From Halobacteriales archaeon QS_3_64_16 (GTDB lineage: Archaea > Halobacteriota > Halobacteria > Halobacteriales > Halococcaceae), in contig PXRJ01000016.1 in assembly GCA_003021705.1 (NCBI GenBank), positions 1,382-65,381 of the forward strand: a stretch of DNA of 64,000 bases, read 5' to 3'. The position numbers were made by a program, and so were the translations under genes. The notes beneath the pieces were generated by a model that worked only from the letters and a program-made list of their open reading frames with translations, did no database searches and had not been told where the DNA came from. Positions 37,417-55,831 of this stretch are shown one piece after another. The number at the start of each line of letters is the position of its first letter. The first letter of the stretch is position 1.

Positions 37417-38616
37417 ATGAGCGTCCGCACTGCCGTGGTCCTCGCGGCCGGCGAGGGAACGCGGTTACATCCCCTCACCCACAACCGCCCTAAGCCCATG
37501 CTCCCCGCCGCGAACCGTCCCGTTCTCGAATACGTCCTCGACGCATTGATCGACGCCGGTATCGAGCGCGTCTGTCTCGTCGTCGGCTACAAGCGCGATC
37601 GCGTCCAAGAGCACTTCGGGCCCCGTTATCGGGACGCCCCAATCACCTACGTCCACCAGGAAAAACAGCTCGGCAGCGGCCACGCCCTCCTCCAAGCCCG
37701 GGAGAGCGTCGACGGGCCGTTGCTGGTCGTGAATGGCGATCGAGTGATCGAACCGAGTCTCGTCTCGGACGTCATGCGAGCGTTCGAGCGCGACGCCGGG
37801 CCCGCAGTACTGGGCGTGATCGAACGGCCCAACGCTCGTCAGTACGGCGCGGTCGTCCTCCAGGGCGGGCGCATCGAGCAGATCGTCGAGAAACCCGATT
37901 CCGACGAGTACCGGCTCATCAACGCCGGCGTCTATGCCTTCGATTCCTCAGTGTTCGACGCGATCGCCGCCACGCCCCGCCGGGAGGGCGAGCTCCAGCT
38001 CCCCGATACCATCGCCGAGCTGATCGACGAGGGCGACGTGCAAGGCATCAGAACCGAGGGGCTGTGGGCGGATGCGACCTACCCCTGGGACATCCTCACC
38101 GTGACCCAGGAGCTGCTCGCGCGCGGCCGGGTCGACGAGCCCGAACGGCGGGAGGAGTCGCGAGTCTGGATCAACGACTCCGCACGCGTTCACGACGACG
38201 CCTCCCTCCAGGCACCCGTCGTGATCGGCGCGGACTGTGAGGTCGGCCCCGGCGCGGTCGTCGGGCCGACAACGGCGCTGGGCCACAACGTCACCGTGGG
38301 TTCGAACGCGACGATCGAACGATGCGTGCTCGACGCCGATACGCGAGTCGGGGCAGGCTCGGTGCTGATCGATTGTGTTACCGGCCAGGACGTCGATCTC
38401 GGTTCGGCAACCGTGGGCTCCGGCGGGCCCGCGGACGTCCGTATCGGCTCGTCGGTCTTCGAGAATCGGCGGTTGGGCGCGGTCGTCGCCGATCGCGTCC
38501 ACGCGGTGGGCGAGGCGAGCTTCGCGCCCGGCACCCTCGTCGGACCGAACGCTACCCTGCATCACGGGGCCCGGGCGAGCGGTCGGGTCGCCGCAGGCGC
38601 GGAGGTGGTGCGCTGA
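37417..38616 (+). CDS. glmU: Bifunctional sugar-1-phosphate nucleotidyl/acetyl-transferase (GlmU type)
   Basis: A 399-residue protein. The N-terminal nucleotidyltransferase shows VVLAAGEGTRLHPLT and RPKPMLP; the C-terminal half is a left-handed beta helix with hexapeptide repeats (VVIGADCEVGPGAVVGP). It makes UDP-GlcNAc from glucosamine-1-phosphate, or a similar sugar nucleotide. The in-frame ATG at 37249 is rejected since the fold begins at MSVRTAVVLAAG and AAAGCTCATA sits about 30 nt upstream. Its TGA overlaps the glmS ATG (TGATG). Confidence 0.88.
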   Translation: MSVRTAVVLAAGEGTRLHPLTHNRPKPMLPAANRPVLEYVLDALIDAGIERVCLVVGYKRDRVQEHFGPRYRDAPITYVHQEKQLGSGHALLQARESVDGPLLVVNGDRVIEPSLVSDVMRAFERDAGPAVLGVIERPNARQYGAVVLQGGRIEQIVEKPDSDEYRLINAGVYAFDSSVFDAIAATPRREGELQLPDTIAELIDEGDVQGIRTEGLWADATYPWDILTVTQELLARGRVDEPERREESRVWINDSARVHDDASLQAPVVIGADCEVGPGAVVGPTTALGHNVTVGSNATIERCVLDADTRVGAGSVLIDCVTGQDVDLGSATVGSGGPADVRIGSSVFENRRLGAVVADRVHAVGEASFAPGTLVGPNATLHHGARASGRVAAGAEVVR

Positions 38617-40415
38617 TGTGTGGGATCATCGGCTGTGTCGGCCGGCAGGAAGAGACCTTAGACGCACTCTTGCATGGCCTCTCGAAACTCGAGTATCGTG
38701 GCTACGATTCAGCAGGTGTCGCCCTCGCCGGGAAGCGAGACGCCGTCGACATCGAGAAGCGCGCCGGCAAGTTAGAGAACCTCCAGGAAGCCCTCGAGGG
38801 CGTCGAGATGGCTGGGACTGTGGGGATCGGCCATACGCGCTGGAGCACGCATGGCCCGCCGACCGACGAGAACGCCCACCCACACACCGACTGTGAGGGA
38901 CAGGTCGCGGTCCTCCATAATGGCATCATCGAGAACTTCCAGGAAATCAGGGACGAACTCGTCGCAAGCGGCCACGAGTTCCGAAGCGATACCGACACCG
39001 AAGTCGTCCCCCACCTCATCGAGGAGGCCTTAGCGGAGGGCGCGAGCCCCGAGGAAGCGTTTCGAAGCGCACTCGCCCGGATCGAAGGGAGTTACGCGAT
39101 CGCCGCGATATTCACGGGCACCGAGGCAGTCTTCTGTGCCCGCCAAGACTCACCACTGGTACTCGGCCTCGACGCCGACGCCTACTATCTCGCGAGCGAC
39201 GTGCCCGCCTTCAGGGACTATACTGATCGGGTGATCTACATGGAAGACGGCGAGGTCGCCTGCCTCAATCCCGAGGGCTGGGCAATCACCGATCGATCGG
39301 GCGACCCGATCGAGAAGGAACCCCACGTCGTCGAGTGGGACGCCGAGGAGACCGGGAAAAGCGGCTACGACCACTACATGATAAAGGAGATCCACGAACA
39401 GCCCCGCACGCTGCGCGAGTGTCTCCGGGGCCGCGTGGACGAACTCGGCGACGAAGTACAATTAGAGGAGTTCGCCGGCCTCGCCCCTCCTAGTACTGTT
39501 CAGTTCGTCGCCTGCGGGACGAGCTATCACGCGGCGCTGTACGGCGCTCAGTTATTCAGGGAAGCCGGGATCCCAGCCCAGGCCTTCCTCGCGAGCGAGT
39601 ATCGCACCTCGCCCCCGCCGATCGGCTCGAACCTGGTCATCGGCATCACCCAGAGCGGCGAGACCGCAGATACCCTGAGCGCACTCCGGGAAGCATCCCG
39701 TCGAGGTGCGCCGACGCTCGCAGTGACGAACGTCGTCGGATCGAGTGCCGCCCGGGAATGCGATCACACCCTCTATATTCGAGCGGGCCCGGAGATCGGC
39801 GTCGCGGCCTCGAAGACCTTCGCGAGCCAGTTGGCGGCGCTCAACGTGCTCTCGCTCGCGATCACCCGCAGTCCCGATAGCCGTGAGGCGATCGGGGCAC
39901 TACGGGACCTCCCGAGTGCCGTACAGGAAGTCCTCGACGAGTCGAGATCCGAGGCGGTCGCGAAAGAGTACATCGAGGCCGACGCCTACTTCTTCATCGG
40001 CCGGGGCTATCAGTATCCCGTTGCGCTCGAGGGCGCGCTGAAGATGAAGGAGATCACCTACAAACACGCCGAAGGCTTCGCGGCGGGCGAACTCAAACAC
40101 GGCCCGCTCGCATTGGTAACCGAACGAACCCCCGTGATCGCCATCGCGGTCGGCGAGGGCGACGCCGCACAAAAGACCGTGGGTAATATCAAGGAAGTCG
40201 AAGCCAGAAACGCCCCCGTGATCGCCGTTACGGACGGGGAGTCGGGCGTCGAGCGGTATGCCGATCACGTCCTGCCGGTCCCCGAGTCCCACCCCCGGAC
40301 CGCGGCGGTCACCGCGAGCGTCCAGCTCCAGTTACTCGCCTACCACAGCGCCGCCCAGCTCGGCCGATCGATCGACAAACCCCGGAATCTCGCGAAAAGC
40401 GTCACCGTCGAATAG
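38616..40415 (+). CDS. glmS: Glucosamine-6-phosphate synthase, isomerizing
   Basis: A 599-residue enzyme making glucosamine-6-phosphate from fructose-6-phosphate and glutamine. Cys2 (MCGIIGC) is the glutaminase nucleophile; GHTRWSTHG and two SIS domains (ACGTSYHAALYGA, ITQSGETADTL) follow, ending with the family-typical KPRNLAKSVTVE. Coupled with glmU by overlapping stop/start codons. A decayed copy of its 3' end occurs at 42553-42653, so this gene borders a recombination-active island. Confidence 0.95.
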   Translation: MCGIIGCVGRQEETLDALLHGLSKLEYRGYDSAGVALAGKRDAVDIEKRAGKLENLQEALEGVEMAGTVGIGHTRWSTHGPPTDENAHPHTDCEGQVAVLHNGIIENFQEIRDELVASGHEFRSDTDTEVVPHLIEEALAEGASPEEAFRSALARIEGSYAIAAIFTGTEAVFCARQDSPLVLGLDADAYYLASDVPAFRDYTDRVIYMEDGEVACLNPEGWAITDRSGDPIEKEPHVVEWDAEETGKSGYDHYMIKEIHEQPRTLRECLRGRVDELGDEVQLEEFAGLAPPSTVQFVACGTSYHAALYGAQLFREAGIPAQAFLASEYRTSPPPIGSNLVIGITQSGETADTLSALREASRRGAPTLAVTNVVGSSAARECDHTLYIRAGPEIGVAASKTFASQLAALNVLSLAITRSPDSREAIGALRDLPSAVQEVLDESRSEAVAKEYIEADAYFFIGRGYQYPVALEGALKMKEITYKHAEGFAAGELKHGPLALVTERTPVIAIAVGEGDAAQKTVGNIKEVEARNAPVIAVTDGESGVERYADHVLPVPESHPRTAAVTASVQLQLLAYHSAAQLGRSIDKPRNLAKSVTVE

Positions 40416-40591: not shown

Positions 40592-40837
40592 ATGACGATC
40601 CTCGTTACCGGGGCCGACGGGTACGTCGGCTGGCCAACGGCACTGCGGATCGCCGACCGCACCGACGAGCGCGTCCTCGGCGTCGATAACCTCGCCCGTC
40701 GCCGATGGGTCGAGACAGTTGGGTCGGTAAGCGCAGTACCGATCGCTCCTATTGAGGAGCGGTCCGCTGCGGCGGCCAGCGACGAACACCGTTTCTCTCT
40801 ACTCCAGGGCATCGTTGTGCCCGCCGTTCTCGATTGA
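40592..40837 (+). pseudogene. 5' fragment of an NAD-dependent sugar epimerase (UDP-sulfoquinovose-synthase-like), copy 1
   Basis: The frame starts ILVTGADGYVGWPTALRIAD, the NAD-binding N terminus of an extended short-chain dehydrogenase of the SQD1 type, and runs to about residue 60 (VGSVSAVPIAPIEERSAAAA) before the homology ends. A full enzyme would have about 390 residues. A TATAAA at 40574-40579 precedes it. A second, further deleted copy lies at 63918. Truncation is clear; transcription is possible but no complete product can be made from the visible DNA. Confidence 0.75.
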
Positions 40838-41242
40838 CGACCGGTTAACGAACTCCTCGGTCTCATCAGCGTGCTCCTCACTATTGGTACCCGCCTCCTC
40901 AGCGGCCCGAACGATTTCGATCGCTATTCGAACCATGCAGAACCAACAGCAGTCACCCATCCGACGGTAGTAGCACCCGCCTTTTTCTTTCGGGAAGTGG
41001 ATCACGACACTGTATTTTTCTACTGCTTGATTAAAGTTTTGTCTGTTGTAAATGATAAGCCGACTGTGGGAGCCCATACTCAAGTACTAGTTGCTTTAAT
41101 GGATGCTCTAACGTATCAGATCCCTGCTTCAACGCTCGTTCACGTGTAGCTCGCGGAATACTTAGCAGAACTACTATCTATTTAATAAGTAGCATGAAAG
41201 TAATATTGGAATACTATCATCGCTACTCGCTTGGGGATTCAA
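40838..41242. other. AT-richer stretch between fragments, no supported gene
   Basis: About 400 bases of lower GC than the neighbourhood, with short frames only. A 45-codon acidic frame on the minus strand (40799-40936) is possible but overlaps the epimerase fragment and has no recognisable relatives. Probably debris between recombination joints. Confidence 0.5.
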
Positions 41243-42046
41243 ATGCCATCGACTTGGTTCACCAAACTTGACATCCTCGGTTTGATCGGGATTACTCTCG
41301 GGCTGCTCGCGGTCGCGTACGCGCCTACTGTGTACAATCATGTTGGAGCGACCTCAGCATAGTGCCGCGTTGTTACGATCTCGATGATCGCTTCGTCGGA
41401 TTGTTGCTGTCGGTAATGTATCTCACTTCGACGCTCAATAATACTCGAAACAAGATCGATGGGCTTGCTCCGATGCTCTCGGCGGATCAGGCCACGAACA
41501 CCCGTTCAATAGAGGGAAGTAGTGTCTACGTCCTTATTCCAGGGTACAATGAGGAGAACGCGATCAACAGCGTTATTGAGTCGCTGTCGGCGTCGATCTA
41601 CGGCCATGAGGTCGTCCCCGGTCACGATGGATGGAGACTGCCGACACTCCACCGACGCGCTCGATGAGTGGATCCGTCCGATTATTGAGGATGAGGCGGA
41701 TTTCGTCATAGGATCGTGACGTCGGGGTATAGATTACTTGAAGAGTGGTCCCGCCTGCCAGGGCGGCATTCACTCCTTTACCCTCCTGATTGCTGCGCTA
41801 ACGAGCCTCTTGATCACCGACTGTACGAGCGGCTTCCACGCGATCCGCGGGTCATCGCTCGAAACGCTGTGGCCCCACCGAAGAACGATTCAGTGCCCGG
41901 GGCTCGTTGTTGAGGCCGAAACAAGCAACTCCGGGTCACGGAGGTTCCGATCACGATCGAGCGGCGACAGGCCGGCGAGACGAAGAAACCACAACTCAAG
42001 TACGCTATTGGCCTCCTACGAACGATCATCGTGACCCGGATCCGAT
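41243..42046 (+). pseudogene. Decayed GT2 glycosyltransferase (paralogue of 61146-62171)
   Basis: Translation in shifting frames matches the intact GT2 gene on the other side of the island: FTKLDILGLIGITLGLL corresponds to FIKLDLLASIGVACALF, YVLIPGYNEENAINSVIESL to YIVIPAYNEEDTIQSVVKSL, WIRPIIEDEADFVIGS to LIRPIVEDEADFVMGS, and ITDCTSGFHAIRGSSLETL to ITDCTNGFRAIRSSSLETL. Several stops, frameshifts and internal deletions (including the metal-binding DGDGQ region) show it is dead. It is on the plus strand, opposite to the intact copy. Confidence 0.85.
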
Positions 42047-42124
42047 GGTCCATCTAAGGGGAACGATCAACCGGCGTCGGCGAGACGAGAACCCGAACGC
42101 GACGATCCGGCACGCCTATCGATC

Positions 42125-42569
42125 GTGAACGTCCTTCGGGTCTCGAAAATGTCGCTCTTCTCGAAGGGTGGTGGTGGCAGGGAGCGTGCCGACGTGATTT
42201 TCGAACGCCTCGCCGAACAGGGTCACGCCGTGACCGCACCCTCGGGAAAAACGGCTCCAAATCTCCTGCGACGCACCTCGGTGGGCAGTTGATCGTCCAC
42301 GTGAGGTGCGTCTCTGACCACATTTTCGCCTAGTTGACGTTCGCCTTCCATGCGACGCGTTACCTATTCGTCCTGGCTAGACTGCTGACATTACTCTTCT
42401 TTCCGTATTGCCGGGAGATTGTCGTCGTCGAGAATATGACCCCTTATCCGACCTTCGCCATTGTCGTTGCGAAAGCGTCTGACCTGCCGGTCGTCGCGTT
42501 ATAACACGAGTTCTTCGATACAAGCAGCTATCGAACATGCGACCCGCTCATCGGGAGCGTTCAAGTCCA
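42125..42569 (+). pseudogene. Decayed GT4 N-terminal fragment (paralogue of 59774-60982)
   Basis: A GTG-started frame reads NVLRVSKMSLFSKGGGGRER, matching NVLYISKTSILSGGGGGEER of the intact GT4, then ENMTPYPTFAIVVAKA and HEFFDTSSY, matching ENMTPYPTFAVFLARF and HEFFDASSY. Stops and frameshifts are frequent. It ends near the equivalent of DPLTASIQ and runs directly into a decayed glmS tail. It follows the dead GT2 in the same order as the intact pair. Confidence 0.85.
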
Positions 42570-42653
42570 GTTGTTCGCCTGCCACAGCGCCGCCGACTCG
42601 GCCGGTCGATCGACAAGCCTCGGAACCTCGTGAGAAGCGTCACCGTCGAGTAA
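42553..42653 (+). pseudogene. Decayed copy of the glmS 3' end
   Basis: About 100 bases closely resemble the last part of glmS (40311-40415): CCACAGCGCCGCC, GATCGAC and AGCGTCACCGTCGA match exactly, with scattered changes and a one-base loss that shifts frame. It is fused to the dead GT4 at a place where the intact GT4 and glmS share a 17-base stretch with one mismatch. Confidence 0.85.
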
Positions 42654-42982
42654 TCGGCTCTCGACTGCGGACCTTTTCCCATTAGTTTCTCTCCGGTCCC
42701 AATGGATGCCGACCGGTCGATCGGTCCCGCTGTAATCCGCCACCCTAATAAGGACTACCGGCGGAGACTCATGGGAACGATTTAAGAACCGATAGCAGAG
42801 CGGCCTTGGCCCTCTCTGGCGGCCGACGACCGGTTGATACCCTATGCCCCCTTCGTTCGGTCGAGACCCGGGGTTCGTCGCCTGGGCATGCGCGGGCCGA
42901 CTCCCACTGGCGAACCACACGGAGTAGTGGGGGTTGCCAAGAAGTAATCGACCGATTCGGGAGCCGAGGACAAACGACTCAA
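42654..42982. other. Leader region before the flippase
   Basis: No supported gene. A TATA-like CGATTTAAG at 42778-42786 would give a leader of about 170 nt before the flippase ATG, unusually long for a haloarchaeon. Alternatively the flippase starts upstream of 42983 within an unconserved, tryptophan- and arginine-rich stretch. Confidence 0.4.
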
Positions 42983-44398
42983 ATGAACATCGCTAAGTCC
43001 AGTGCCAAGTTGTTTGCTTCGCGGGCCGCGCGGGCGTTGTTCCTGTTCATTGGAACGACCTACTTCGCGAGGCAACTCGGCGCATCGGAGATTGGCGTGT
43101 TCTTTCTGTTCCAGGCGCTAGTGCGGTTACTGTCGGTCATCGCCGATTTTGGCCTCCGGGGAGCGATCGAGAAGCGAATGAGCGAAGGACGGCACGCCCC
43201 GACAATATTAAGCGCGGGCGTATCGCTTAAACTCGCCCCCCTATCGATCGTCGCCGCAGCGGTCTGGCTCCTCCGAGGGTTTGTCAACGAGTACCTCGGC
43301 GCTGATCTCGCGCCCCTACTACTCGTGGCCGTCGTGCTCTACGAGAGTTCACGTCTAAGCATCGATGTGCTGAGAGGTCGGATGCGTGCTGGCGAGACGG
43401 CCTCGCTCGAAGTACTCGAACAGGCGACGTGGCTTCTGACCGGAGCGGCGCTCCTCGAACTGGGTTTCGGCGTTCGGGCGCTCGTATACGCGCTTTTGGT
43501 CGGGTACGCGATGATGACTCTAGGAGGATTGTACAAACAACCGCCGCGCGTGGCCCGACCGTCGATGTCGATGATGCGGTCAATCGCGGACTACGCGAAG
43601 TACCACTCGGTGAACATAGCGGGCGGGTACGTCTACAGTTGGATGGACCTCGCGATAATCGGGTTGTTCCTTACTCAAGCCGATGTTGGTGCCTACGAGG
43701 TCGCCTGGCGGATCAGCCTGTTCGCGACGATCCTCAGTACGTCCATCGGCGTCGCGATCTTCCCGCAGATGAGTGCCTGGGACACAAGCGGCGCAATCGA
43801 TCGGATCGAGAGTCTCATTCCGACCGCGATGGTCTTCTCGGCGCTGTTTGTCATCCCAGCATTCGTCGCCATGCCGGTGCTCTCCGCGGACATTCTCCGC
43901 GTCCTATTCGGACAAGAGTACACGATCGCCTCGGCGGCCCTCATCGTCCTCATGAGTCAAAAGGTCATCAGCGCAATCGGGACCACAATTACGAAAGCAC
44001 TCAACGCGATCGACAGGCCGAACCTGCGAGCCCGTGCTACGGTGGGATCGCTACTGACGAACGTCGTCCTCAACGTCGTGTTGGTGTTGCAGTTCGGTCT
44101 CCTCGGTGCTGCGGTCGCGACTACTATTGCCGCCGCGATAAACACCGGTATACAGGTCTATTACCTCTCGCGATTCGTAACGATCGACTTTCCCTACTAC
44201 GACGTCGGGTGGCTCGCCTTCTCGTCGCTATGTATGGCGGCCATCATATTCGGGATCAAATCTATCTATACTGTCAATGCGATCGTCGGGTTGGCCGGTA
44301 TCGTTCTTGTCGGCGGTGCGACCTACACCGCGTTCGTCTTCGTCTCGCCCCGTCTTCGCTTCCGTCTCCGTCTGACGATCGATCGACTGCTGGCCTAA
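42983..44398 (+). CDS. Polysaccharide flippase (MOP superfamily, Wzx-like)
   Basis: A 471-residue membrane protein with about 12-14 hydrophobic segments, starting NIAKSSAKLFASRAARALF and containing GTTYFARQLGASEIGVFFLF, the usual N-terminal pattern of oligosaccharide flippases. It would move lipid-linked glycans across the membrane for N-glycosylation or exopolysaccharide. ATG at 42983 is where the conserved pattern begins. Its TAA overlaps the stop of the convergent DUF1616 gene. Confidence 0.85.
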   Translation: MNIAKSSAKLFASRAARALFLFIGTTYFARQLGASEIGVFFLFQALVRLLSVIADFGLRGAIEKRMSEGRHAPTILSAGVSLKLAPLSIVAAAVWLLRGFVNEYLGADLAPLLLVAVVLYESSRLSIDVLRGRMRAGETASLEVLEQATWLLTGAALLELGFGVRALVYALLVGYAMMTLGGLYKQPPRVARPSMSMMRSIADYAKYHSVNIAGGYVYSWMDLAIIGLFLTQADVGAYEVAWRISLFATILSTSIGVAIFPQMSAWDTSGAIDRIESLIPTAMVFSALFVIPAFVAMPVLSADILRVLFGQEYTIASAALIVLMSQKVISAIGTTITKALNAIDRPNLRARATVGSLLTNVVLNVVLVLQFGLLGAAVATTIAAAINTGIQVYYLSRFVTIDFPYYDVGWLAFSSLCMAAIIFGIKSIYTVNAIVGLAGIVLVGGATYTAFVFVSPRLRFRLRLTIDRLLA

Positions 44399-45591
44399 TA
44401 CGACGGAGCGCCGACCCGATGAGCACTTCGACTCTCGTTTCGACTCGCCGGCCCAGTATTGACTCCGATATTGCGGTTGTCCAACGCTCGGTTCGCCTTC
44501 GCGTCGCGCCGAGCGCTCGCGTTAGCCGGGCTGTGGTCCGCAACGTTGATTCGTAGGTGAACCTCCTGGTAGGCGGTGTCTATGGTCGGTTCGCTCGGCG
44601 GGTCCCCGCGATAGAGGAGATACGTCAGCCGCAGTTGCCGACCGGTCAGCGTCGGCTCGATACGGTGGGGCCGTTGCCACGTCTCGTCGACCCCGAGGGA
44701 GGGGGTGAACCGATGGAGCGTCTCCTCTCTGAGCACGCGCGTCGAGCCGCTCTCGGCGCCGAGATACTGTAGTTCGACGACGAGCGTGTACTGGGCCGGT
44801 TCGTTTTCGTGGTTCTCGACGCCGACGACCAGTGATTCGCTCTCACCGACGGTGAAGTTCTCCGGATAGCCACTCGCTGTCAGGTCGCCGGAGGCATCCC
44901 GGTCGAGCAGGTACAGCGAGGAGAATGGCTCGTCGTCCTTCGGGTTCGAGGCTACATACGACACCCCGCCTGCCGCGAGGATTAGGCATACGACAACGAG
45001 AATGTTCAAGACGGCGTCCGTTCGCGAGTCGGGACGCAGTGCGCTCGAATACAGTTCCTTTCGACGCTGTCGGATCGGCATATGGAAGCGTTCCTCGGCG
45101 GGCAGCCGCCAGCGACGTATCACCGCGATGCCCGCGGTAAAGAGCACAAACCCGCTGATGGCGAGGACAACCGGAACGAGTCTGATCCCGACGGTAGCAT
45201 CGAGTCCCAGTCCGATCAACGGCGTGATCGCGATGCTGAGGCCGAGAGCGAGCGCTATCCGTTCGAGGCCGCTGATACTGATACCACCCCGAACCGATGA
45301 GTGATCCTTGCCAGTTTCTCTGACTGGCCCCGCCGGGTTGTCCGCTGTGATGTCGGGTCCTTCTTCGGACGGTTTAGAGTTCTCCGGAAAGAGCGCTGCG
45401 ATGGCTACGTAGCCGGGCAGAAAGAGCGCGAGTGGGAGACCAGCGAGGACCTGCAGTATTGTCCCGTCGGCAACCGACGAAAGGACGACGACGTCCGCGA
45501 TAAGCACTGCGAGAACGACGAGAAGAAGATCACCGGACAGACGAAAGGGATCGCCCGAATTCGAAGCGTTCACTTCTCCATCCTCCGACAT
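44395..45591 (-). CDS. DUF1616 membrane protein
   Basis: A 398-residue protein with four or five hydrophobic helices in two groups (about 18-66 and 108-155, then one near 195-212), followed by an extracytoplasmic beta-rich domain (NFTVGESESLVVGVENHENEPAQYTLVV). This is the DUF1616 layout found in archaeal glycan loci. It begins 2 nt after the GT-C-like gene stop, so the two form an operon with the AlkP gene upstream. Role unknown. Confidence 0.8.
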   Translation of the reverse strand: MSEDGEVNASNSGDPFRLSGDLLLVVLAVLIADVVVLSSVADGTILQVLAGLPLALFLPGYVAIAALFPENSKPSEEGPDITADNPAGPVRETGKDHSSVRGGISISGLERIALALGLSIAITPLIGLGLDATVGIRLVPVVLAISGFVLFTAGIAVIRRWRLPAEERFHMPIRQRRKELYSSALRPDSRTDAVLNILVVVCLILAAGGVSYVASNPKDDEPFSSLYLLDRDASGDLTASGYPENFTVGESESLVVGVENHENEPAQYTLVVELQYLGAESGSTRVLREETLHRFTPSLGVDETWQRPHRIEPTLTGRQLRLTYLLYRGDPPSEPTIDTAYQEVHLRINVADHSPANASARRDAKANRALDNRNIGVNTGPASRNESRSAHRVGAPSY

Positions 45592-45593
45592 TG

Positions 45594-47792
45594 CTATCTG
45601 CTTGTTCGTGCGGTGCTAAAAGCGGCTTGGTGTCGCCCGACCACGAGTCGCTCGGTGTGCCGGCCGGGAACATCAATCCGGGTGCTGCTCAAGCGCTCGT
45701 TGGCACCGATAGCCGCTCGGCCACTGGTAGATCCATTGGTTCCGTTCGCTTTGCTTCGTTGGTCCGTTCCTCGGTCCAGATCTGTCTCCCGCCCGGTGTC
45801 CCGCCGCTGGTACACGTCGAAGCCGCCGCCGGCATATACGTGGTCGTCTACCGATCGGTCGGGCGGCGGAGCGGCAAACACGAACGCCGCACCGCCGAGC
45901 CGGGCATCACCGCCGAGTTCGATGCCGGATTGGGCGGCCAGCCGGCTATAAACATAGGTCTGTCCGGGGACAATTCGACCCCGATCGACCACTCCGGTTC
46001 GTGTGGTGAGTCGGCGGATCGGAACGGTTGTCTGGGGAACCGACATGGTGAGTGCGTCCTGACCGTACTGATCGACCCACTCGGTACCGGTCGTGTGGCT
46101 AATCGTATCGTACCGCCTGAAATGCGGGATCTGATCGCCAGTCGGTGACAGCGCGAAGCCGGCGACTGACGAGGATAGCGCGAGCGCGGCGAACAAGTAG
46201 ACGGTCCCGACCACCACGTACCGTCCTGTATCGGGCGGTAACCGACGGTCGAACTGATCGAGTGCCACGGCGGCGAGGGCGTTCAGTCCGAACAGCGTCA
46301 ACAGCGAGTAGATCCGCTGTGGGGGGATGTCAGTCGCGTTCAGTAGTATCCCCATAGCCAGTGTGGCCGCGCCGACGGCCACCCAGGCGAGCATGAGGTC
46401 GTAACTCCAGGAGCGATAGCGGAAGACGACGATCGCTCCGATAGCAGTCAGTGCGAATAGAACGGCCTGGTTGGCGGTATTGAACACCAGGATTGCAAGG
46501 GGTAGTTGGGAGTACCGCCCGGCACCCCCGGACCCGGTAGCCGTTCCCGTCCCCGTGATCGACATCGCAATGCTAACGAGGCGACCGATCAGTGCCGTGT
46601 CGTACAGCAGTGAATACCCTAGAGCGATGCCGACCGTCAAAGCGAACACCGGTATGGGTAGCCGGACCGAGGTGTGATAATCGAGCGGGCGGAGGTCCTC
46701 GTATCGATCTCGGAGAGGCATCGTTAACCGCCGGCGGAGACGCGAGGTGAGCGAGTACTGGTCCCTGTCATCGCTGTCGGATGGTTGCGAGCGGGGGATT
46801 GGGTGATTGAATGGGCTGAAACGATCGAAGCGGTCAAAGGGGCTACAGCGATCGAGAACCGAGAAGACGGTGATCGTAGCGAGCAACATCATCGCAGCCC
46901 CTGAACTGAACGTATGGCCCGAGGCGAGTGCGAACGCGACGATCGCGGTGAGAAACAACCAGCGCCGACGATCACGCTGAAAGACCGTCGCGAATGCTGC
47001 AATGGCTAACAGGACGATCAGCGGGTAGAAGAAGTTCAGCTTGTTCGGGCGCAGCCCTCGGCCCAGAATGAAACTTGTCGTCGCGAATAGGAGCGTCGCG
47101 TACAACGTGATGCGGCGATCGATGTCCGGTAGCAGGCGAAACAGGAGTGGCAACAGGAACACGACCGTCGTGAGGGCAATCGTCGCCGTGAGGTAGTAGG
47201 CGACTTCGGGGGACAGCCCGGTTAGCCGCACCGTTTGAGCAACGAGCAGCATATGGCCGGGGGTCTGTGCGTAGATGAGTCCCGGCGTGATATGCCCGAC
47301 GTCAAGGATCGTCCGGATCGCTGGGAGGAACCCGTTCGGTACGTCCGGCGAGTATGCGCCGCTCGGGAAGGCGAACTGTGAGCTCCAATAGGTGAGAAAG
47401 CCGAGCAGAGCGATCTGTGGAACGACGGTTTCGTGCGAACCGTCGCCAGCAACCTGGTAGGCGATGAACGCCGCGTACCCGCTGAACAGCAGGTAGTGCG
47501 CAAATGGCCGAGTACCGATGGCCGAGAACCGGTAGAGAGCCATTACACCGAGGAGGTACACCGTACCGAACGTGACGACTACCCGCCGGTCGGAGACCAC
47601 CGATACCCGCTCACCCAGCGGATAGCGAAGCATGACGGCAGCAATCAAGCTCCCGATAGTCGCACCCGCGACGGGTATGAGAAACGAGTAATAGCCTGCA
47701 TAGAAGAACGCCGCTGTTAGGACGGCAGTAGTGAAGAAAACCGGAATGCCGGGTGAGCGCCGAACTCGATCGCTTACGTTGGCCAGCGACAC
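45594..47792 (-). CDS. Large polytopic membrane protein, possible GT-C glycosyltransferase
   Basis: About 732 residues with roughly 13-15 hydrophobic segments and a hydrophilic loop rich in Asp and Arg near the middle. The first large outer loop (SQFAFPSGAYSPDVPNGF) followed by HITPGLIYAQTPGHMLLV resembles the topology of GT-C-fold, polyprenyl-phosphate-sugar-dependent transferases. The C terminus is soluble and polar. The frame opens far upstream inside the AlkP gene; a GTG at 47792 (VSLANVSDRV) is the likely start but is uncertain. The glycosyltransferase role is inference from topology and context. Confidence 0.6.
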   Translation of the reverse strand: MSLANVSDRVRRSPGIPVFFTTAVLTAAFFYAGYYSFLIPVAGATIGSLIAAVMLRYPLGERVSVVSDRRVVVTFGTVYLLGVMALYRFSAIGTRPFAHYLLFSGYAAFIAYQVAGDGSHETVVPQIALLGFLTYWSSQFAFPSGAYSPDVPNGFLPAIRTILDVGHITPGLIYAQTPGHMLLVAQTVRLTGLSPEVAYYLTATIALTTVVFLLPLLFRLLPDIDRRITLYATLLFATTSFILGRGLRPNKLNFFYPLIVLLAIAAFATVFQRDRRRWLFLTAIVAFALASGHTFSSGAAMMLLATITVFSVLDRCSPFDRFDRFSPFNHPIPRSQPSDSDDRDQYSLTSRLRRRLTMPLRDRYEDLRPLDYHTSVRLPIPVFALTVGIALGYSLLYDTALIGRLVSIAMSITGTGTATGSGGAGRYSQLPLAILVFNTANQAVLFALTAIGAIVVFRYRSWSYDLMLAWVAVGAATLAMGILLNATDIPPQRIYSLLTLFGLNALAAVALDQFDRRLPPDTGRYVVVGTVYLFAALALSSSVAGFALSPTGDQIPHFRRYDTISHTTGTEWVDQYGQDALTMSVPQTTVPIRRLTTRTGVVDRGRIVPGQTYVYSRLAAQSGIELGGDARLGGAAFVFAAPPPDRSVDDHVYAGGGFDVYQRRDTGRETDLDRGTDQRSKANGTNGSTSGRAAIGANERLSSTRIDVPGRHTERLVVGRHQAAFSTARTSR

Positions 47793-47920
47793 GGTCTGAA
47801 CATTTATCCGAAGGGCGGCGGCATACGTTTGTCGAACGTTGCCGCGAACTTCTCGTGGCGGCCGAGCGCGGCCGACCTCGGGCTGACGACAGTGAAGGTG
47901 AGGAAGGCGTTGTGGGCGAC

Positions 47921-49021
47921 TCAGCGGTAGCCGAGGTCCGCAAGCCGTTCGTGGACTGCCGTCTCGTCGATACGCTTCTTGACTAGTTCGTAGCCGTCCT
48001 TCTCCTGAGGAGGCTCGACATCGATGCCGAAGTACTCGAGAATCGCGGGTGTCACGTCGAGCTGTCGTTCTAGTCCGAACGGCGCGGTCCCACCCCACAC
48101 TCCTCGCGTCGTATCGTGATCTAAGCCAATGTTCTTCCCGACGCGGAGCGGGGAACGCGGTCCCATTCCGTGATCGGAAAGAACGAGGACGTCGTCCGGG
48201 TTGATCTCATCGATGACGCGTCGTGTGGCTCTGTCGGTCGCTCGATAGATCCGCTCGATTACTCCCTTGTCTGTTGTTGAGTGCAGGACGTCGTCGATCG
48301 AGCGAAGCATGACGAACCCGAACTCGAAGTCCTCTCGTTCGTCGTGGTCGCTGTAGAGGTCGATATACCGATCCGCGACCGCCTCGGTTTTGTCGACGTG
48401 AGCGTCGCAGAACGCTTCGACTGAGGTATTCTCGTCGTTGACCGGGGAGTCCATTTGGACGTGATACCCGGTAAAGTCCTCGTCGAAGACCGTTGGTTGG
48501 AGTTCGGCTGGGGAGACGAGCGGTTGTGTGGCTTCCTCGGGCGTCGGAGCGGGGACGCCGCTGATAAGGATGCCGTTCGTTTCCCACGTCGGGTAGCTCA
48601 CCGGCAGGCCGAAGACTAGCGCGTTCCCCGACAGGTACTCCCAAACGCGCTTGAACGGCACGTCGGTGCTTTGGGGACTTGCGCCACGTCCGCCCTCGGT
48701 TGCGACGTTCCCGAGACCGAATGCGAGTACGCCACGGCGGACCAGCCGCGGCAGTACCGATCGGTTCGCTACCCACTTGATCGGCCCCGCGAGCGGGTGG
48801 CCGACGTACGGTCCGTGAACGAACCCGAGGACCCGGTGGTCTTCGAAGGGCGCGCCGGTCGTGATCGTCGTCCAGGCATTGCCGGTGCTGATGTACGTGT
48901 CGTGGAACAGCTCCTCGGGAAGTAACGTCCCGGAGTGATCGAGCGAGTCCCAGAACGGGAGGTCGATCGCCCGGAGGTGTGTCGAGGTCGCTGCATCCCA
49001 CCCGACTACCAGTAAGTCCAT
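47921..49021 (-). CDS. Alkaline-phosphatase-superfamily hydrolase (phosphodiesterase type)
   Basis: A 366-residue enzyme: metal-binding Asp in LLVVGWDAATSTHL, a Thr nucleophile region AWTTITTGAPFEDHRV, and the late metal motif LVLSDHGMGPRSP. The residues suit a type I phosphodiesterase/pyrophosphatase rather than a formylglycine sulfatase, as there is no CxPSR. It ends LADLGYR, a tail shared with three other AlkP-fold proteins in the island. First gene of the operon with the GT-C-like and DUF1616 genes. Confidence 0.78.
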   Translation of the reverse strand: MDLLVVGWDAATSTHLRAIDLPFWDSLDHSGTLLPEELFHDTYISTGNAWTTITTGAPFEDHRVLGFVHGPYVGHPLAGPIKWVANRSVLPRLVRRGVLAFGLGNVATEGGRGASPQSTDVPFKRVWEYLSGNALVFGLPVSYPTWETNGILISGVPAPTPEEATQPLVSPAELQPTVFDEDFTGYHVQMDSPVNDENTSVEAFCDAHVDKTEAVADRYIDLYSDHDEREDFEFGFVMLRSIDDVLHSTTDKGVIERIYRATDRATRRVIDEINPDDVLVLSDHGMGPRSPLRVGKNIGLDHDTTRGVWGGTAPFGLERQLDVTPAILEYFGIDVEPPQEKDGYELVKKRIDETAVHERLADLGYR

Positions 49022-49178
49022 TGACCGCCGATTGCGCACCGTTCCTCATAGGCCCTTCCATGTGACCGGCCGTTCTCCTCGTCGGGGGGTTTACGTACGT
49101 CCGTTCGGTCCCAGAGTGAGGCCGATCGAGCGCCGAGGGGAGTTAACAGCTATACGACCGGCCGACGTGACGTGATCT

Positions 49179-50480
49179 ATGCCCCGCGATGTGTTCCTCG
49201 TCACGATCGATTGCTGGCGCTGGGACGCCCTCAAAGCCATGCCGCGGCTCCGCTCGCGAACCGAGTCCTGGCAGCAACGCCCGGCGATCTGTGCGGGACA
49301 CGCCACTAACTGGGCGTTTCCCGCGATTCTCAACGGGACGTACTACCCGCGCGCCTATACTGAGTCAGGCGAATTGAAAAGCGGGACCCGACCGCTGCCC
49401 CAGGTTCTCGGCGAGAAAGGCTACCGGAGGAGGGGTGTCGTCGGATCGAACGTCTACCTAGCGAAGTGGGAACCGTATTTCGATGCCTACTGGAATGACG
49501 GAATGGAAGGCGAAGACGCCGCGATGTACGGCTCCGACGTCGAGAAGTGGGCCACGAGGGCGTTTCTGACGCTTGCGATGCGAAAACGTGCCCCGATCGA
49601 AGAAGTCATCGATCGCGTTCGCGCCGGCCGACCGGTTCCCGCGAGGAGTCTTCAGGGGAACAATGGGAAAGGCGAGCACGAGAACGGGGACGAAAGCAAA
49701 AGCGGAAGCGGAAGTGAGGGAAAGCCACGATTCGACTGGATACACCTCATGGACTTGCACATGCCCTTTTACCCCGGCATCGGGCGCGCGGCAGGTGTCG
49801 GGTTGGTCGAGAGCTACCGTGCGGTCGTGGAGTTCTACCGGCGGGGAAACGACGCGAGCGAACGAACCCTGCGGACGATCCAACGGCTGTACTGGGCGTG
49901 TGTGAAACGGCTGGACGAGCGAATCGACCTCCTGTTCGAGACGATCCCCAAAGACGCAGTCGTGATCGTACTCGGCGATCACGGGGAGGACTTCGGTCAC
50001 GGCGTCTATGGACCCCTCCAGCCGTACGACGAGTGTCTGAAAGTGCCGCTGCTGGCGCGGAATCTTCCCGACCTCCCCGAGACCGTCCGTCAGATCGACG
50101 TTCCGGCCCACCTGCTCGATGCGCTGGGAGTTCCGATACCGGAGCAGTGGGACAGCGACCTCGACCGCGAGGAGTTCGTTGCACCGTTCTTGAGCCCCGG
50201 GGCACGGAACGAGGAGCTGTTCGCCGGCGTGCGCACGCGCGACCGAAAGCTGATCCGAACTTACGACGCCGAGACGCTCCGACACACTACCACCGAGATG
50301 TATGACCTCGACCAAGACCCGAACGAACAACGGGACCTCTCCGAGCGGGAGCAGGCCTCGGACCTCGAGGAGTACCTCGATGCGTTCATCGAACGCGAGG
50401 AGATCGGTAAGGTCATTGACCCGCGGGAGAACGCCTCCGAAGCCGCCAGGGAACGACTAGAAGAACTCGGCTACATGTAG
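49179..50480 (+). CDS. Sulfatase-like AlkP-superfamily enzyme
   Basis: A 433-residue protein with VFLVTIDCWRWDALKAM (metal Asp), HATNWAFPAILNGTYYP at the nucleophile position with Thr instead of formylglycine Cys, and VIVLGDHGEDFGHGVYG. After the core comes a charged tail ending LEELGYM. A low-complexity KSGSGSEG insert lies near residues 160-187. Without the Cys it may act as a phosphohydrolase or phosphotransferase on surface glycans. No signal peptide, so it appears cytosolic. Divergent from the AlkP operon. Confidence 0.75.
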   Translation: MPRDVFLVTIDCWRWDALKAMPRLRSRTESWQQRPAICAGHATNWAFPAILNGTYYPRAYTESGELKSGTRPLPQVLGEKGYRRRGVVGSNVYLAKWEPYFDAYWNDGMEGEDAAMYGSDVEKWATRAFLTLAMRKRAPIEEVIDRVRAGRPVPARSLQGNNGKGEHENGDESKSGSGSEGKPRFDWIHLMDLHMPFYPGIGRAAGVGLVESYRAVVEFYRRGNDASERTLRTIQRLYWACVKRLDERIDLLFETIPKDAVVIVLGDHGEDFGHGVYGPLQPYDECLKVPLLARNLPDLPETVRQIDVPAHLLDALGVPIPEQWDSDLDREEFVAPFLSPGARNEELFAGVRTRDRKLIRTYDAETLRHTTTEMYDLDQDPNEQRDLSEREQASDLEEYLDAFIEREEIGKVIDPRENASEAARERLEELGYM

Positions 50481-50622
50481 CAATTGGACCCTCGACCCCA
50501 GTCCCGTCCTATCGCCGCCGAAACTCGCTGCCTTGAGTCGAGATTTGGTCGCCGTCGAACCCGCCGACACTGCTGACGCGCCGCCGGGGCCGACAGTTGT
50601 TTCCCTCGTTTTCGCACATCGA

Positions 50623-50641
50623 ATTTAAGTACAGGGAGGAG
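50623..50641 (+). promoter_or_regulatory. TATA box and ribosome-binding site of the Tat-exported protein
   Basis: ATTTAAGT at 50623-50630 is followed by GGGAGGAG at about 50634-50641, 13 nt before the ATG at 50655. The close packing means the Shine-Dalgarno may lie at or before the transcription start. Confidence 0.4.
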
Positions 50642-50654
50642 ACCACGGCGTCTC

Positions 50655-52127
50655 ATGGAACCGACCCGACGGACGTACCTGAGGGGACTCGGTCTCGGAT
50701 CGCTTTCGATGACTTCGTTGGCCGCTGCCGGCCGCGAGCGGGACCGATCGTCGATCGGCGGCCCACAACAACAGACTGAAACCCAGTCACTGTCGCTCGC
50801 GAACGTTCTGACGATCAGCGGTACCGGTCCAAGAACCCGGTATCGATTCGAGATCAACGGCACCGTCGAGAAGTCCGGCGAGTACGGGTCGATCCAGGGC
50901 AGCGACACGCTTGACGGCGGGGCAGGGGAGGGTGTCGTTGGCGGCGGAACGGACGCCTACCTGTTCGAGGGCGCGATTACCGCCTTCGCCGTTGAGGAGC
51001 CGAGCAACGTCGTCGTCCGAATAAACGGCCACGCGATCGCGCCGAGCACGCTCGGAAACGGCAGTACGGCCGTTGCCGGATCGGGCGGATCGTCGGTCGC
51101 CGAGGCACTGTTCGCCTCGAACGGCAGCGGGATCGGTGTCGTCGCGCCCTCGCTCGCGAGCGCGTATAACTCGCTCACGGCGGCGATCAGCGCCGGTCAC
51201 CGGGAGATATGGCTCGCCGAGTCCATCGCGGAGAACGGGATCCCGATTCCGTTCCTCCCCGTCAACAGCGGCGGGCTGGCGATCAGAGGCGTCGGTGAGA
51301 AATGGCAGACGATCACCGATCCCGACCAGGACGGCACCCCGATCTTCGATGTGGACACGAGCGAGTACTCCTGGGATGTCGTCATGGAGGACATCGCCGT
51401 CGAGGGTGGCGAAGGATCAGGCCGGGCGATCAACTGCAATTATACCGAGGTCGGCCAGCCCCAAGACGGCGGGAAACGCCCCCATCGGTGGTTCCTCAAG
51501 AACTGCCATTTCGACGCCGGGCCAGCAATCGTCATGGGCGGGATCAACATGAAGTTCGAGAACACGGTGTTCAACGCCGCCGAGTCGACCAACTGGAGTC
51601 CCCACTGGCTCTCGGGGCGATCGAAGGAGTCGATCGAAGTCGGCGCGGGTCTCGTGACCGGCGGCGGGACGACCCACCGAATCGATCACTGCTTCTTCGG
51701 CAGTGCGGGGTCACAGGACACGCGCGGGGACGTGACGTTCATGTTGATCTCGTGCAACGGCTTCCTCGATACGTCGAGCATCTACCACTACGGCGAGGCG
51801 ACACACGCCAACATGTATGTCGACGGGACGCGCGGCGCGACATGGGTCAAGCCGTGGTTCGAGTCGGGCCAGCTCGATAACGACTTCCACGTCGGCAGTT
51901 ACTTCCAAGACATCCGCAACCAGGCGCTCGGGTTCTACCAGCCGAGCACTGGGGCGGGCCGTTTAATCCTAGAGAACTGCTACGATAGCGTTATCAATCG
52001 ATCGGAGGGCGGCGGCGAAATCGAGGCTACCGATGTCGGCGGCATCGAAGTCATCAACGGCCGAGGACGATGGGAGGCCGTCGGTTCCGACCCGGACGAC
52101 GTGCTGATTCGATCGGTCTCAGCCTGA
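50655..52127 (+). CDS. Tat-exported beta-helix-like surface protein
   Basis: A 490-residue protein beginning with a twin-arginine signal (TRRTYLRGLGLGSL) and an Ala-rich cleavage region. The remainder is rich in Gly, Asn and short strands (NGHAIAPSTLGN, FKNCHFDAGPAIVMGGINMKFENTVF), typical of right-handed beta-helix proteins such as pectate lyase-like enzymes or glycan-binding tail proteins. No catalytic residues are assignable. It may act on or bind the surface polysaccharide made by this locus. Confidence 0.7.
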   Translation: MEPTRRTYLRGLGLGSLSMTSLAAAGRERDRSSIGGPQQQTETQSLSLANVLTISGTGPRTRYRFEINGTVEKSGEYGSIQGSDTLDGGAGEGVVGGGTDAYLFEGAITAFAVEEPSNVVVRINGHAIAPSTLGNGSTAVAGSGGSSVAEALFASNGSGIGVVAPSLASAYNSLTAAISAGHREIWLAESIAENGIPIPFLPVNSGGLAIRGVGEKWQTITDPDQDGTPIFDVDTSEYSWDVVMEDIAVEGGEGSGRAINCNYTEVGQPQDGGKRPHRWFLKNCHFDAGPAIVMGGINMKFENTVFNAAESTNWSPHWLSGRSKESIEVGAGLVTGGGTTHRIDHCFFGSAGSQDTRGDVTFMLISCNGFLDTSSIYHYGEATHANMYVDGTRGATWVKPWFESGQLDNDFHVGSYFQDIRNQALGFYQPSTGAGRLILENCYDSVINRSEGGGEIEATDVGGIEVINGRGRWEAVGSDPDDVLIRSVSA

Positions 52128-52320
52128 CTGGCGAGCAGCGCGAGCGATCCGGCGGGCGGTATCGAGGCGAGCAACGTACTGATACGAGGATAGCGACAAC
52201 CCACTGAGCGCTGCGACGCTTTGAGCCCTCCGGACGGCCGCCTTCAAAGGGGGGCCCAGCAATGGCTCCGGCCGGGACCGTGCTTCGATTTGCCCAACCC
52301 CCAAGACACCGGCAAGCGAT

Positions 52321-53523
52321 TCAGGACACGCCCGGCAGGACATCGAGAGCGCGGCGGATGAACGGGCCGGGGTCGTCGACGAAGAGGTAATCGAACTGTG
52401 GCTGTCGGTACACTGATGATAGGACCTCCCACAGCGCGGTTCGGAACCGGGGGCGTTCGACAGTTGGGTCCTCACCCCGAAGCACGCTGAGGAGGTACTG
52501 GACTTCGCCGAACAGCGAGTGGACCGCAAAACCAGTCTCGTAGCCGGGGTCGGTAGGTATGATCCCGCCCGCGACGAGCCAGTAGTAATATGGAAAGTCC
52601 GCGCCTGCGCCGATGTCACAGCTAATCGAGCCCCAGGCCCGCGGGTTCACGTCCATCAGCTTGAACTCGTCCGTTGCTGGGTCCTGTAGGAACTCGACGT
52701 CTACGAGACCCTCCCAGTCGAGGTAATTGAGCAGCGCACAACCTGTTTTTTCTAGCTTCGGCATCGAGATCGACTCGCGATAGACGCTCACGCCGCCGGT
52801 ATAGGAGTTCTGTCGCCATTCCCTGTTTAGACATACCGCCACCGGCTCGCCTTCCTCGTAGAGCGCTCGGAAACAGTATATATCGCCCGGGATGACCTCT
52901 TGAGCGATCGGAGTATGACCCATTGCTGTCCGGATCGCTTCTACGTCCGGTCCGCTATCCGCCGCCGAAACCCGCCAGGTATCCAGTTCTGTCTCGGCTG
53001 ATACGGATGGCCCGACGTATTCCTCGACGAGGAGGTTGTATCGCGATTTGACGATCAGCTCACGATCTAACTCGGCCGTTCCGTCGAGCAGCCATGTCTT
53101 AGGGGTCGATACTCCGGCCTCCATGGCGGTTTCGACCAAACGCATCTGATCGTGGATCGTCCTGAGCGCCTCGAACGGCGGTACCACCACTGAGACGTGT
53201 GATTCAAACTCCGAGCGGTACTTCGAGAGGAGGTAGGTGTCTTCCTCCCAAACCGGAAGGATCGTCCGTATATCCGGGCGTTCCGCGAGCGATAGCAATG
53301 CCTCCTTATAGGCGAGTACATTCTTTTGGGGCGAGGGAACGACGACGGCTTCGTCGCAGTACTGCGAGGCGAACGCCGGGACGTTCCGGTAGGGCGAGAC
53401 GACGACCGTATAGACCTCGCGCGAGGCAAGCGAGCGCAGACACGCATAGCAGGACGGCGAGTAGTTCGCCGGCAGAACGACTGCCTCCCCCTCGTTAGCC
53501 GATTCGATCACGGCCACTAGCAC
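52321..53523 (-). CDS. ATP-grasp enzyme (carboxylate-amine ligase-like)
   Basis: A 400-residue protein with a preATP-grasp N-terminal domain (VVLPANYSPSCYACLRSLASR), a central ATP-grasp region (IVKSRYNLLVEEYV, QEVIPGDIYCFRALYEEG) and the metal-binding VDVEFLQDPATDEFKLMDVNPRAWG. Such ligases join amino acids to carboxylates and may add an amino acid to a glycan. Several GTGs occur at the start. The first 29 nt overlap the end of the upstream propeller gene, so the two are translationally linked. Confidence 0.78.
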   Translation of the reverse strand: MLVAVIESANEGEAVVLPANYSPSCYACLRSLASREVYTVVVSPYRNVPAFASQYCDEAVVVPSPQKNVLAYKEALLSLAERPDIRTILPVWEEDTYLLSKYRSEFESHVSVVVPPFEALRTIHDQMRLVETAMEAGVSTPKTWLLDGTAELDRELIVKSRYNLLVEEYVGPSVSAETELDTWRVSAADSGPDVEAIRTAMGHTPIAQEVIPGDIYCFRALYEEGEPVAVCLNREWRQNSYTGGVSVYRESISMPKLEKTGCALLNYLDWEGLVDVEFLQDPATDEFKLMDVNPRAWGSISCDIGAGADFPYYYWLVAGGIIPTDPGYETGFAVHSLFGEVQYLLSVLRGEDPTVERPRFRTALWEVLSSVYRQPQFDYLFVDDPGPFIRRALDVLPGVS

Positions 53524-54700
53524 TGTCTAAGGAGTCATCAACTTTTGGGTCCGGCGAGACGTACATCCCGATGCTCCAGTATGGTTTCGCGACCGGGTTC
53601 GGTCTGGGTCCGACGTCGCCATCGACCGCACAGAGCCAGCCATCGCCGGTATACCAGGGATCGATGTGGTGCATCCGCCCGGCGTTCCAACCGATCGCCC
53701 GGTTTACCGGTCGCAAAAGGGGCGATCGGGCCAGCTCGCGGTCGACATATGTCGAGGGGGTTAGTTCCGTGATCTCGTAGCCTCTAACCTTCTCGCCGTA
53801 GTTGATGACACAGTCCTGAAAGAAAGCAATGATTCGGTTATCCCTGACGATCGGTCGGCCGCCCGGTCGTGCCGCGGCGGGTCGGTCGGTTACGATTGGG
53901 TTCTCCCGGTGTGGAGACCAGCCTTCCGTCGTAAGATCGTCACTGAAGTACGCGTACGTTCGATCGCCGGCCGTCGACCCGCCGACGAGCGCCCACCACC
54001 TCTCCTTCCACCGGAAGAGAACGGTGTCGTTCACCGGGTGGTTCGCAGAGATCAGGACTGCTCGCTCGCTCCAGTCCGTCGGGAACTCCCTCGCCGCGTA
54101 GAGAACGACGCTCTCGCCGGACGCTCCACCCTGCTCAGGGAGCATATAGTGTGTGCCGTCCCACTCGAAGACATAGGGAAACGATAGGTGCGAGTCCGCT
54201 TCCAGTACTACGCGGTCATACCGCCAGTGACGGCCGCCGTCGGGGCTCGTAGCATGGCCAATCACTGCGTCGGGCCGTCGGTCGCCGTTGTAGACCTCGA
54301 AGAAGAGGTGATAGCCCTCGTCCTCGGAGACGAACAGGAACGGGTCGGCGACGTACTCGACGCGCCCATAATCGGTTACGTCTGCGGCACTCAACACCGG
54401 ATTTGGGATTCGCAGGTCGGGACAGGCTGAGAGGGGTTCGCTCAGCGTCGGGGAGTAGGGATAGGTCGGGATCGTTGTTCCGCTGGGGAGGTCGCTGTAG
54501 AGCGACGCGAGCGGGGGTCTTGCGTCTGACCACCTCGTCTCTGGCTCCGTGAGACCGCGCTCCCGTAGCGCTGCCGGGAGTTCGTGATGGATTGATCGAT
54601 TGGCTGCCCGCGCCAGTAAAACGATGGACGGCAGGTTGCCCGCCGCCGATCGTATCCAGTCGAATCGGAGATATCGCCTCGGGAACAGGCGGTCGGTCAT
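53495..54700 (-). CDS. Five-bladed beta-propeller protein (GINT1 N-terminal-domain type)
   Basis: A 401-residue protein with repeated strands of the glycosidase-43/62-like propeller: YVADPFLFVSEDEGYHLFFEV, SFPYVFEWDGTHYMLPE, DTVLFRWKERWWALVG and RPGGRPIVRDNRIIAFFQDC. The family is linked to the N-terminal domain of glucosamine inositolphosphorylceramide transferase and occurs beside formyl- or glycosyltransferases. Here the partner appears to be the ATP-grasp gene, overlapping by 29 nt. Likely a glycan-modifying or binding protein. Confidence 0.7.
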   Translation of the reverse strand: MTDRLFPRRYLRFDWIRSAAGNLPSIVLLARAANRSIHHELPAALRERGLTEPETRWSDARPPLASLYSDLPSGTTIPTYPYSPTLSEPLSACPDLRIPNPVLSAADVTDYGRVEYVADPFLFVSEDEGYHLFFEVYNGDRRPDAVIGHATSPDGGRHWRYDRVVLEADSHLSFPYVFEWDGTHYMLPEQGGASGESVVLYAAREFPTDWSERAVLISANHPVNDTVLFRWKERWWALVGGSTAGDRTYAYFSDDLTTEGWSPHRENPIVTDRPAAARPGGRPIVRDNRIIAFFQDCVINYGEKVRGYEITELTPSTYVDRELARSPLLRPVNRAIGWNAGRMHHIDPWYTGDGWLCAVDGDVGPRPNPVAKPYWSIGMYVSPDPKVDDSLDSASGRDRIG

Positions 54701-54844
54701 CCGTTGCTGAACAGTAGGGATTGACTCGTAACTAGCTTCCGAACCGGTGCTCCGAGCTGTCGTTTCACAGCGGCCATTCGGTAGGCAGCCACGACATGCT
54801 CGTCATTTCGCGGATCACGGCTCGGCCCTAGCGGATATACAGCT

Positions 54845-55403: not shown

Positions 55404-55464
55404 AGCGGGTTGTTTAACGCTCAGTTCCTGGGATCGGGCGTCGTGAGGCTATTGCTACCGTCCG

Positions 55465-55713
55465 AGAGAGCAACTGATCACCGCGTTCGGCACCGCTGTC
55501 TCGCCCGCCTCACTACTGGCCGCCCACGGGTTCGTGAGCAATCACTGTGCGCCGTTGTCGTGGGTCACCACCGCGACGCCGATGGTAGTCAATCCACTCA
55601 CAGACGAGCGGTCCGGAGAGACAAGCGAAGCCGACGAGTGGGACATTAATGGGTTCGATCCAACCCAAGAGACGAATTAGCTGTTCTTCTATAGCAATCG
55701 AGACATGGTCTAA
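55465..55713 (+). pseudogene. Decayed GNAT acetyltransferase C-terminal fragment, copy 2
   Basis: The frame LITAFGTAVSPASLLAAHGF matches LIAAFGTAVSPALLDSYGF of the intact GNAT, with the nucleotide stretch CGCGTTCGGCACCGC identical. It continues with SWVTTATPMVVN, INGFDPTQETN, a stop, and FFYSNRDMV, paralleling FWVAAANSMVVH, LDGFDPSDRSN and LLSYSDWDVI. Only the last quarter of the gene remains. Confidence 0.8.
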
Positions 55714-55831
55714 GTTCTCAGTCCGCGCTCGAAGCCGGAAACCTCGAAGGCGACGACTCGCGATCGTCAGATCCTGTCCGACCCCAACGGGCGCTGCGCT
55801 CCATGGAGCCGCTTCACAGTTTTCACAAGGA

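Follow-up and report, generated by a model that had tools for sequence, protein, structure and literature searches.

Four known systems come closest to the present locus. Homology-facilitated illegitimate recombination (HFIR), in which one end of an incoming fragment is anchored by ordinary homologous recombination and the free end is joined illegitimately, is rare in bacteria where it has been measured. It is known from S. pneumoniae, A. baylyi, P. stutzeri and E. coli, and its junctions mostly show 3-10 bp of microhomology (PMC3240628). At the T6SS loci of Vibrio, serial one-sided imports leave displaced fragments (PMC5361080); in the V. cholerae arrays, these imports occur at a conserved anchor gene and the fragments represent truncated 3' remnants of earlier residents. 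Cell-surface islands of Haloquadratum and other haloarchaea carry variable surface-glycan clusters that are exchanged between lineages, and these exchanges were described as homologous recombination together with mobile elements (PMC4535781). Furthermore, microhomology-mediated end joining, yielding deletions or joints at short repeats, was shown at induced breaks in the haloarchaeon Haloferax volcanii (PMC7521656).

The locus analysed here lies within a stretch of 64,000 nucleotides, referred to as the window, and shares features with each of these systems. As in HFIR products, a microhomology of a few base pairs (a 9-mer within a match of 16/17 bases) was found at an illegitimate junction, and foreign DNA may be trapped beside a homologous flank; unlike them, the event is read from an archaeal fossil in which the homologous end is not directly seen. 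The resemblance to the V. cholerae arrays lies in truncated 3' remnants near a conserved anchor gene, but the remnants are dead and non-coding and only one clear old scar is present. The locus shares a variable surface-glycan cluster with the Haloquadratum-type islands, but differs from them in its split flanking gene and its preserved illegitimate joint. Like the H. volcanii case, it concerns a joint at a short shared sequence in a haloarchaeon, at which end joining may have acted. Mosaic and insert are recombination scars of an already known kind at a surface-glycan island, and they are well preserved: joints of this type are usually erased, whereas this one is kept to about 10 bp beside a younger insertion with a restorable empty site. 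The locus offers a concrete archaeal example in which imprecise joining, in addition to clean homologous exchange, appears to bring in surface-glycan islands. The arrival broke a conserved sugar-nucleotide gene.

A Decayed GT2-GT4-glmS Mosaic with a Microhomology Joint

Based on blastn and base-level alignments, a dead GT2, the N-terminal part of a dead GT4 and a dead glmS 3' end follow each other on the + strand. The features concerned and their intact counterparts in the window are the following:

38322..40415, + strand: resident glmS (glutamine-fructose-6-phosphate transaminase), intact; Pfam SIS x2 and GATase_6; 92% aa identity to glmS of G002
40778..41225: A+T-rich stretch (47.5% GC) between the split epimerase and the dead GT2 (composition, tblastx)
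41226-42558, + strand: decayed GT2-GT4 pair, running into the decayed glmS 3' end
41226..42047, + strand: dead GT2 of the DUF2304-GT2 type, with several frameshifts and ~140 bp lost internally
42115..42549, + strand: dead GT4, N-terminal part only (blastn, alignments, breakpoint scan)
42549..42559, + strand: joint interval; the 9-mer ACCGCGAGC, ancestrally common to both parents, lies within the 16/17 stretch at 42550-42566
42548..42653 (from 42545 by blastn), + strand: decayed 3' end of a glmS, non-resident in type and lacking one base
59774..60982, - strand: intact island GT4
61146..62171, - strand: intact DUF2304-GT2 of the island (domains DUF2304 and Glycos_transf_2)

Blastn within the window matched 41226-41620 and 41610-42047 to the intact GT2 (62123-61724, 68%, E 1e-31, and 61581-61147, 73%, E 3e-69), 42115-42558 to the intact GT4 (60992-60542, 70%, E 7e-46) and 42545-42652 to glmS (40306-40414, 83%, E 3e-26). 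In the preliminary description, the region was read as a decayed copy of the intact GT2-GT4 pair with its GT4 part fused to a decayed glmS tail; decay and fusion are borne out by these matches, whereas the pair is not a copy of the intact one, as outlined below. The GT2 segment 61582-61723 (~140 bp) is absent from the dead GT2 according to both blastn and alignment. GTCGT-type short repeats flank the corresponding gap (41610-41620 vs 61582-61723), and this loss may be a short-homology deletion too. No Pfam family was detected in 40778..41225, and 26 residues encoded on its minus strand show a 62% match to a short segment of contig C54 from this genome (L064 9911-9988). Frameshifts are located on both sides of the GT4/glmS joint. 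A functional GT4-GlmS fusion gene is ruled out, since no + strand ORF of at least 80 aa runs across the joint. As part of the history proposed below, the mosaic may well represent a non-coding fossil carried on the left side of an island of surface-glycan genes.

GT4 and glmS were previously noted to share 16 of 17 bases at the joint (60534-60550 and 40311-40327), and precisely this pair, ACCGCGAGCATCCAGCT / ACCGCGAGCGTCCAGCT, was recovered. The register is unique and the best among 2,531,646 GT4 x glmS registers. In the mosaic, the 17-base stretch corresponds to 42550-42566, and in the alignment the similarity breaks inside this stretch and not outside it. A breakpoint scan gave 42548/42549 as the best position, and breakpoints within one match of it all fall in 42545-42559. 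Just 5' of the 17-base stretch, two other family GT4s carry CTC, likewise found in the dead copy. Position 42549 therefore no longer favours glmS, which places the crossover at ~42549-42559, in the 9-mer ACCGCGAGC common to both parents. An old microhomology joint is present, with its crossover placed to within about 10 bp. The reading frame over the joint is the same for both genes (GT4 ...DPLTASIQ..., glmS ...VTASVQ...). The initial interpretation as illegitimate recombination between paralogous segments, followed by decay, is upheld regarding the microhomology joint and the decay; the word 'paralogous' does not apply, as GT4 is unrelated to glmS and has only the short stretch in common with it.

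The parent proxies used are 17-30% diverged from the dead copy, and a search of 392 genomes from the order yielded no strain or donor with the joint in undecayed form. All evidence originates from one genome, available as a draft assembly of 70 contigs with 79% completeness, a status that would allow for a contig erroneously joining reads of several strains or repeats. Assemblers normally make no joins at 9 bp or zero overlap; moreover, divergence is gradual and accompanied by indels on both sides of the GT4/glmS joint, and the flanks keep their gene order with congeners. An assembly artefact is considered highly improbable.

Origin of the Dead GT2-GT4 Pair and of the Dead glmS Tail

Mismatches were counted by codon position. 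Between dead and intact GT2, values of 0.22/0.15/0.41 and 0.18/0.16/0.44 were obtained for positions 1/2/3, compared to 0.20/0.14/0.40 and 0.19/0.15/0.44 for controls, i.e., functional GT2s of other family members vs the intact GT2. Because this pattern equals that of interspecies functional controls, dead and intact GT2 are regarded as separately evolved homologues, and a recent decayed copy of the intact GT2-GT4 pair is ruled out. Judging from codon positions, most of the dead/intact GT2 difference accrued while both genes worked, the dead pair having diverged before its death. The dead GT4 part shows a weaker third-position bias vs the intact gene (0.22/0.17/0.30), as expected because of more decay. 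Transitions and transversions in the dead GT2 amount to 145 to 65, vs 111 to 120 in one control; this transition excess, the frameshifts and the ~140-bp loss were added after GT2 death. The nearest relative found of the dead GT2 is the intact GT2 (78% in the best block; no other exceeds 74%), and no close relative of GT2-GT4 was detected among 392 genomes.

In an alignment with eleven relatives, the dead glmS tail lacks both codons that distinguish the resident glmS, namely CGA and, within the genus, AAT. It has the TTC codon of a sister genus and, most simply and probably, also its GAC codon, and carries the AGC codon of its own genus. When all tails tested were scored, two congeners came out marginally ahead of the resident, with the sister genus closely behind it. 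The tail does not derive from the neighbouring resident glmS, and a recent duplication of the resident glmS end is ruled out, since resident-specific letters are absent. The tail is thus of a non-resident type; its lineage is weakly resolved because it comprises only ~106 bp, a length at which precise placement is not possible.

A plain microhomology-mediated deletion would give the same joint. In this case, a second, complete glmS would once have followed GT2-GT4 in the same orientation, and end joining at the 9-mer after a break would have eliminated the 3' half of GT4 together with the greater part of glmS. GT2, GT4 and glmS tail are all encoded on the + strand in the right order, the microhomology is exact, and microhomology-mediated end joining is documented in H. 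volcanii (PMC7521656). However, the otherwise unseen second glmS downstream of GT4 is a requirement of this scenario, no GT2-GT4 pair is located upstream of glmS in the genomes examined, glmU being almost always there, and the foreign type of the glmS tail is not explained by deletion alone. Such a deletion is therefore rated as rather unlikely.

A 23.2-kb Glycan-Gene Insert Splits a Conserved Epimerase Gene

The affected region is larger than the interval 41243-42653 initially described, extending from the split epimerase at 40592 to about C16:65393 and including a 23.2-kb insert that had been missed; the mosaic itself lies within it. In seven family genomes (G001, G002, G004, G005, G007, G010, G013), glmU and glmS are followed by the sqd1-like epimerase and then by another two epimerases, and G012 has the epimerase directly next to glmS. 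Most members of the family thus carry this epimerase intact beside glmS. The best NCBIfam model of the epimerase is UDP-sulfoquinovose synthase, with a score below the model cut-off. The insert and its borders include the following elements:

40592..40777, + strand: epimerase 5' fragment, first 186 nt, sqd1-like NAD-dependent, undecayed, cut off at 40777
40743..40777, + strand: left copy of a perfect 35-bp direct repeat bounding the insert
40778..63977: insert of 23,200 bp, glycan-gene island and scars
42984..44398, + strand: flippase (Polysacc_synt), first intact island gene (Pfam on ORF 42806-44398)
63917..63977, + strand: 61 bp repeating the epimerase start, with the genus-type element CGACAGTTACTT upstream of them
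63978-64012 (C16:65359-65393): right copy of the 35-bp direct repeat, reaching beyond the window end

The interval 40423-40777, spacer included, shows 86% nt identity to G002, and the matches of all relatives end at 40777. The epimerase body is found 23 kb away, from C16:65359 on; the right part of the gene, second start included, occupies 63917-64000 and continues in L007 5299-6372. Joining the flanks over the 35-bp repeat yields a stop-free ORF of 387 aa, 356/387 of which are identical to G002, and the empty site is present in G001, G002 and more distant relatives. Between the second epimerase start and the remaining body 91 bp are missing, and the right copy is therefore out of frame. Since the gene is split by the insert and its right part is out of frame, this conserved sqd1-like epimerase is probably dead in this genome, as deduced from its sequence; no other copy was found above the strict cut-off in the 79%-complete genome.

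According to Pfam, the island encodes the flippase, GT4s, a GT2, sulfatase-like proteins, an acetyltransferase and an ATP-grasp protein. Its GC content is 61% vs 66% upstream, and nothing above ~72% nt identity to its genes was found in family genomes, short conserved stretches apart, whereas congeners match the flanks at ~85-90%. The glycan genes are absent at this site in close relatives, and the genes constitute an acquired surface-glycan island. An integrase-borne integrative element is ruled out, as neither an integrase or transposase among the scanned island ORFs nor a tRNA was found. Within the island, 55474-55510 and 56759-56795 form a 37-bp direct repeat with 95% identity.

Proposed History of the Locus

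Based on these results, the old microhomology joint is proposed to be the illegitimate end of a one-sided homologous import that was later carried in by the recent island insertion, a history to which an even chance is assigned. In an ancestor or donor, a segment ending in GT2-GT4 would have been joined to a glmS 3' end by pairing over the ~9-bp ACCGCGAGC within the 16/17 match. Most likely, and by analogy to HFIR, the joint was the free end of the incoming fragment, the other end being homologous and anchored by ordinary recombination; the joint would accordingly have been made during import and not by later deletion. The truncated GT4 and its GT2 partner would then have decayed. Later, the whole block, consisting of dead GT2-GT4', glmS tail, the island from flippase to GT2 and the epimerase start, would have entered the sqd1-like epimerase gene that follows the resident glmS. 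The first 186 nt of the epimerase would have remained to the left of the block and the epimerase body to the right of it, the 35-bp repeat being common to both. We place the insertion after the GT4/glmS joint because the left epimerase fragment is undecayed and the mosaic is heavily decayed.

Within the block 42545-63977, a glmS end is located at the start and an epimerase start at the end. These are the two neighbours of the normal locus, which suggests that the donor was a relative carrying the island between glmS and epimerase. At the right end of the block, epimerase start and upstream element would be compatible with a homologous crossover; none is demonstrable there, however, and the 91-bp gap follows. 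The import scheme leaves the loss of these 91 bp unexplained, which counts against it, as do the rarity of HFIR in bacteria, the divergence of the parent proxies, the failure to find the undecayed joint in the 392 genomes, the shortness of the glmS tail and the reliance on one draft genome.

The arrangement of the two scars is also what serial displacement in place would produce. Imports homologous in glmU/glmS and illegitimate downstream would have fused first GT4 into the old resident glmS tail and then the epimerase fragment into 40778. Anchored in glmS, such imports would leave remnants ordered by age away from this gene, and indeed the undecayed scar adjoins glmS, with the decayed scar further out and the orphan glmS 3' end behind, matching the Vibrio T6SS pattern (PMC5361080). 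In addition, a separate genus-type upstream element accompanies the epimerase copy on the right. However, it would have to be coincidental that the cut on the left (nt 186) and the deletion in the right copy (nt 62-152) lie within 35 bp of each other. Moreover, the flanks look as if inherited vertically and together restore an intact gene, for which a single insertion is the simpler explanation. Serial displacement is thus judged improbable. It is equally doubtful that, in these haloarchaea, the locus after glmS acquires glycan islands through recurrent one-sided homologous imports, with a truncated remnant left behind each time; if true, it would be an archaeal counterpart of the bacterial serial-displacement arrays, with the import order readable from the scars.

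The Region between glmS and the Epimerase in Other Haloarchaea

Unrelated genes, not a glycan island, are located between glmS and epimerase in G014, and an uncharacterised gene pair occupies this place in Halosimplex/Halorientalis. A family-wide glycan-island hotspot between the two genes is unsupported by these intervening genes. A gene whose product starts with M-x-x-I-D-x-x-G-R-x-F-G-x-x-N-V/I was observed between glmS and epimerase in L076, L092, L093, L097 and L114; in the several genera concerned, it is usually accompanied by a second gene. In most haloarchaea outside the window's genus (L076, L086, L093, L160-L169 and others), the epimerase start codon directly adjoins the palindrome GTTACTC-N6/7-GAGTAAC, which fits the Halobacterium TrmB motif TACT-N7-8-GAGTA (PMC4158304). 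In the window's genus, this palindrome is absent, and GAGCGACAGTTATTT is found ~45-50 bp upstream of the epimerase start instead.
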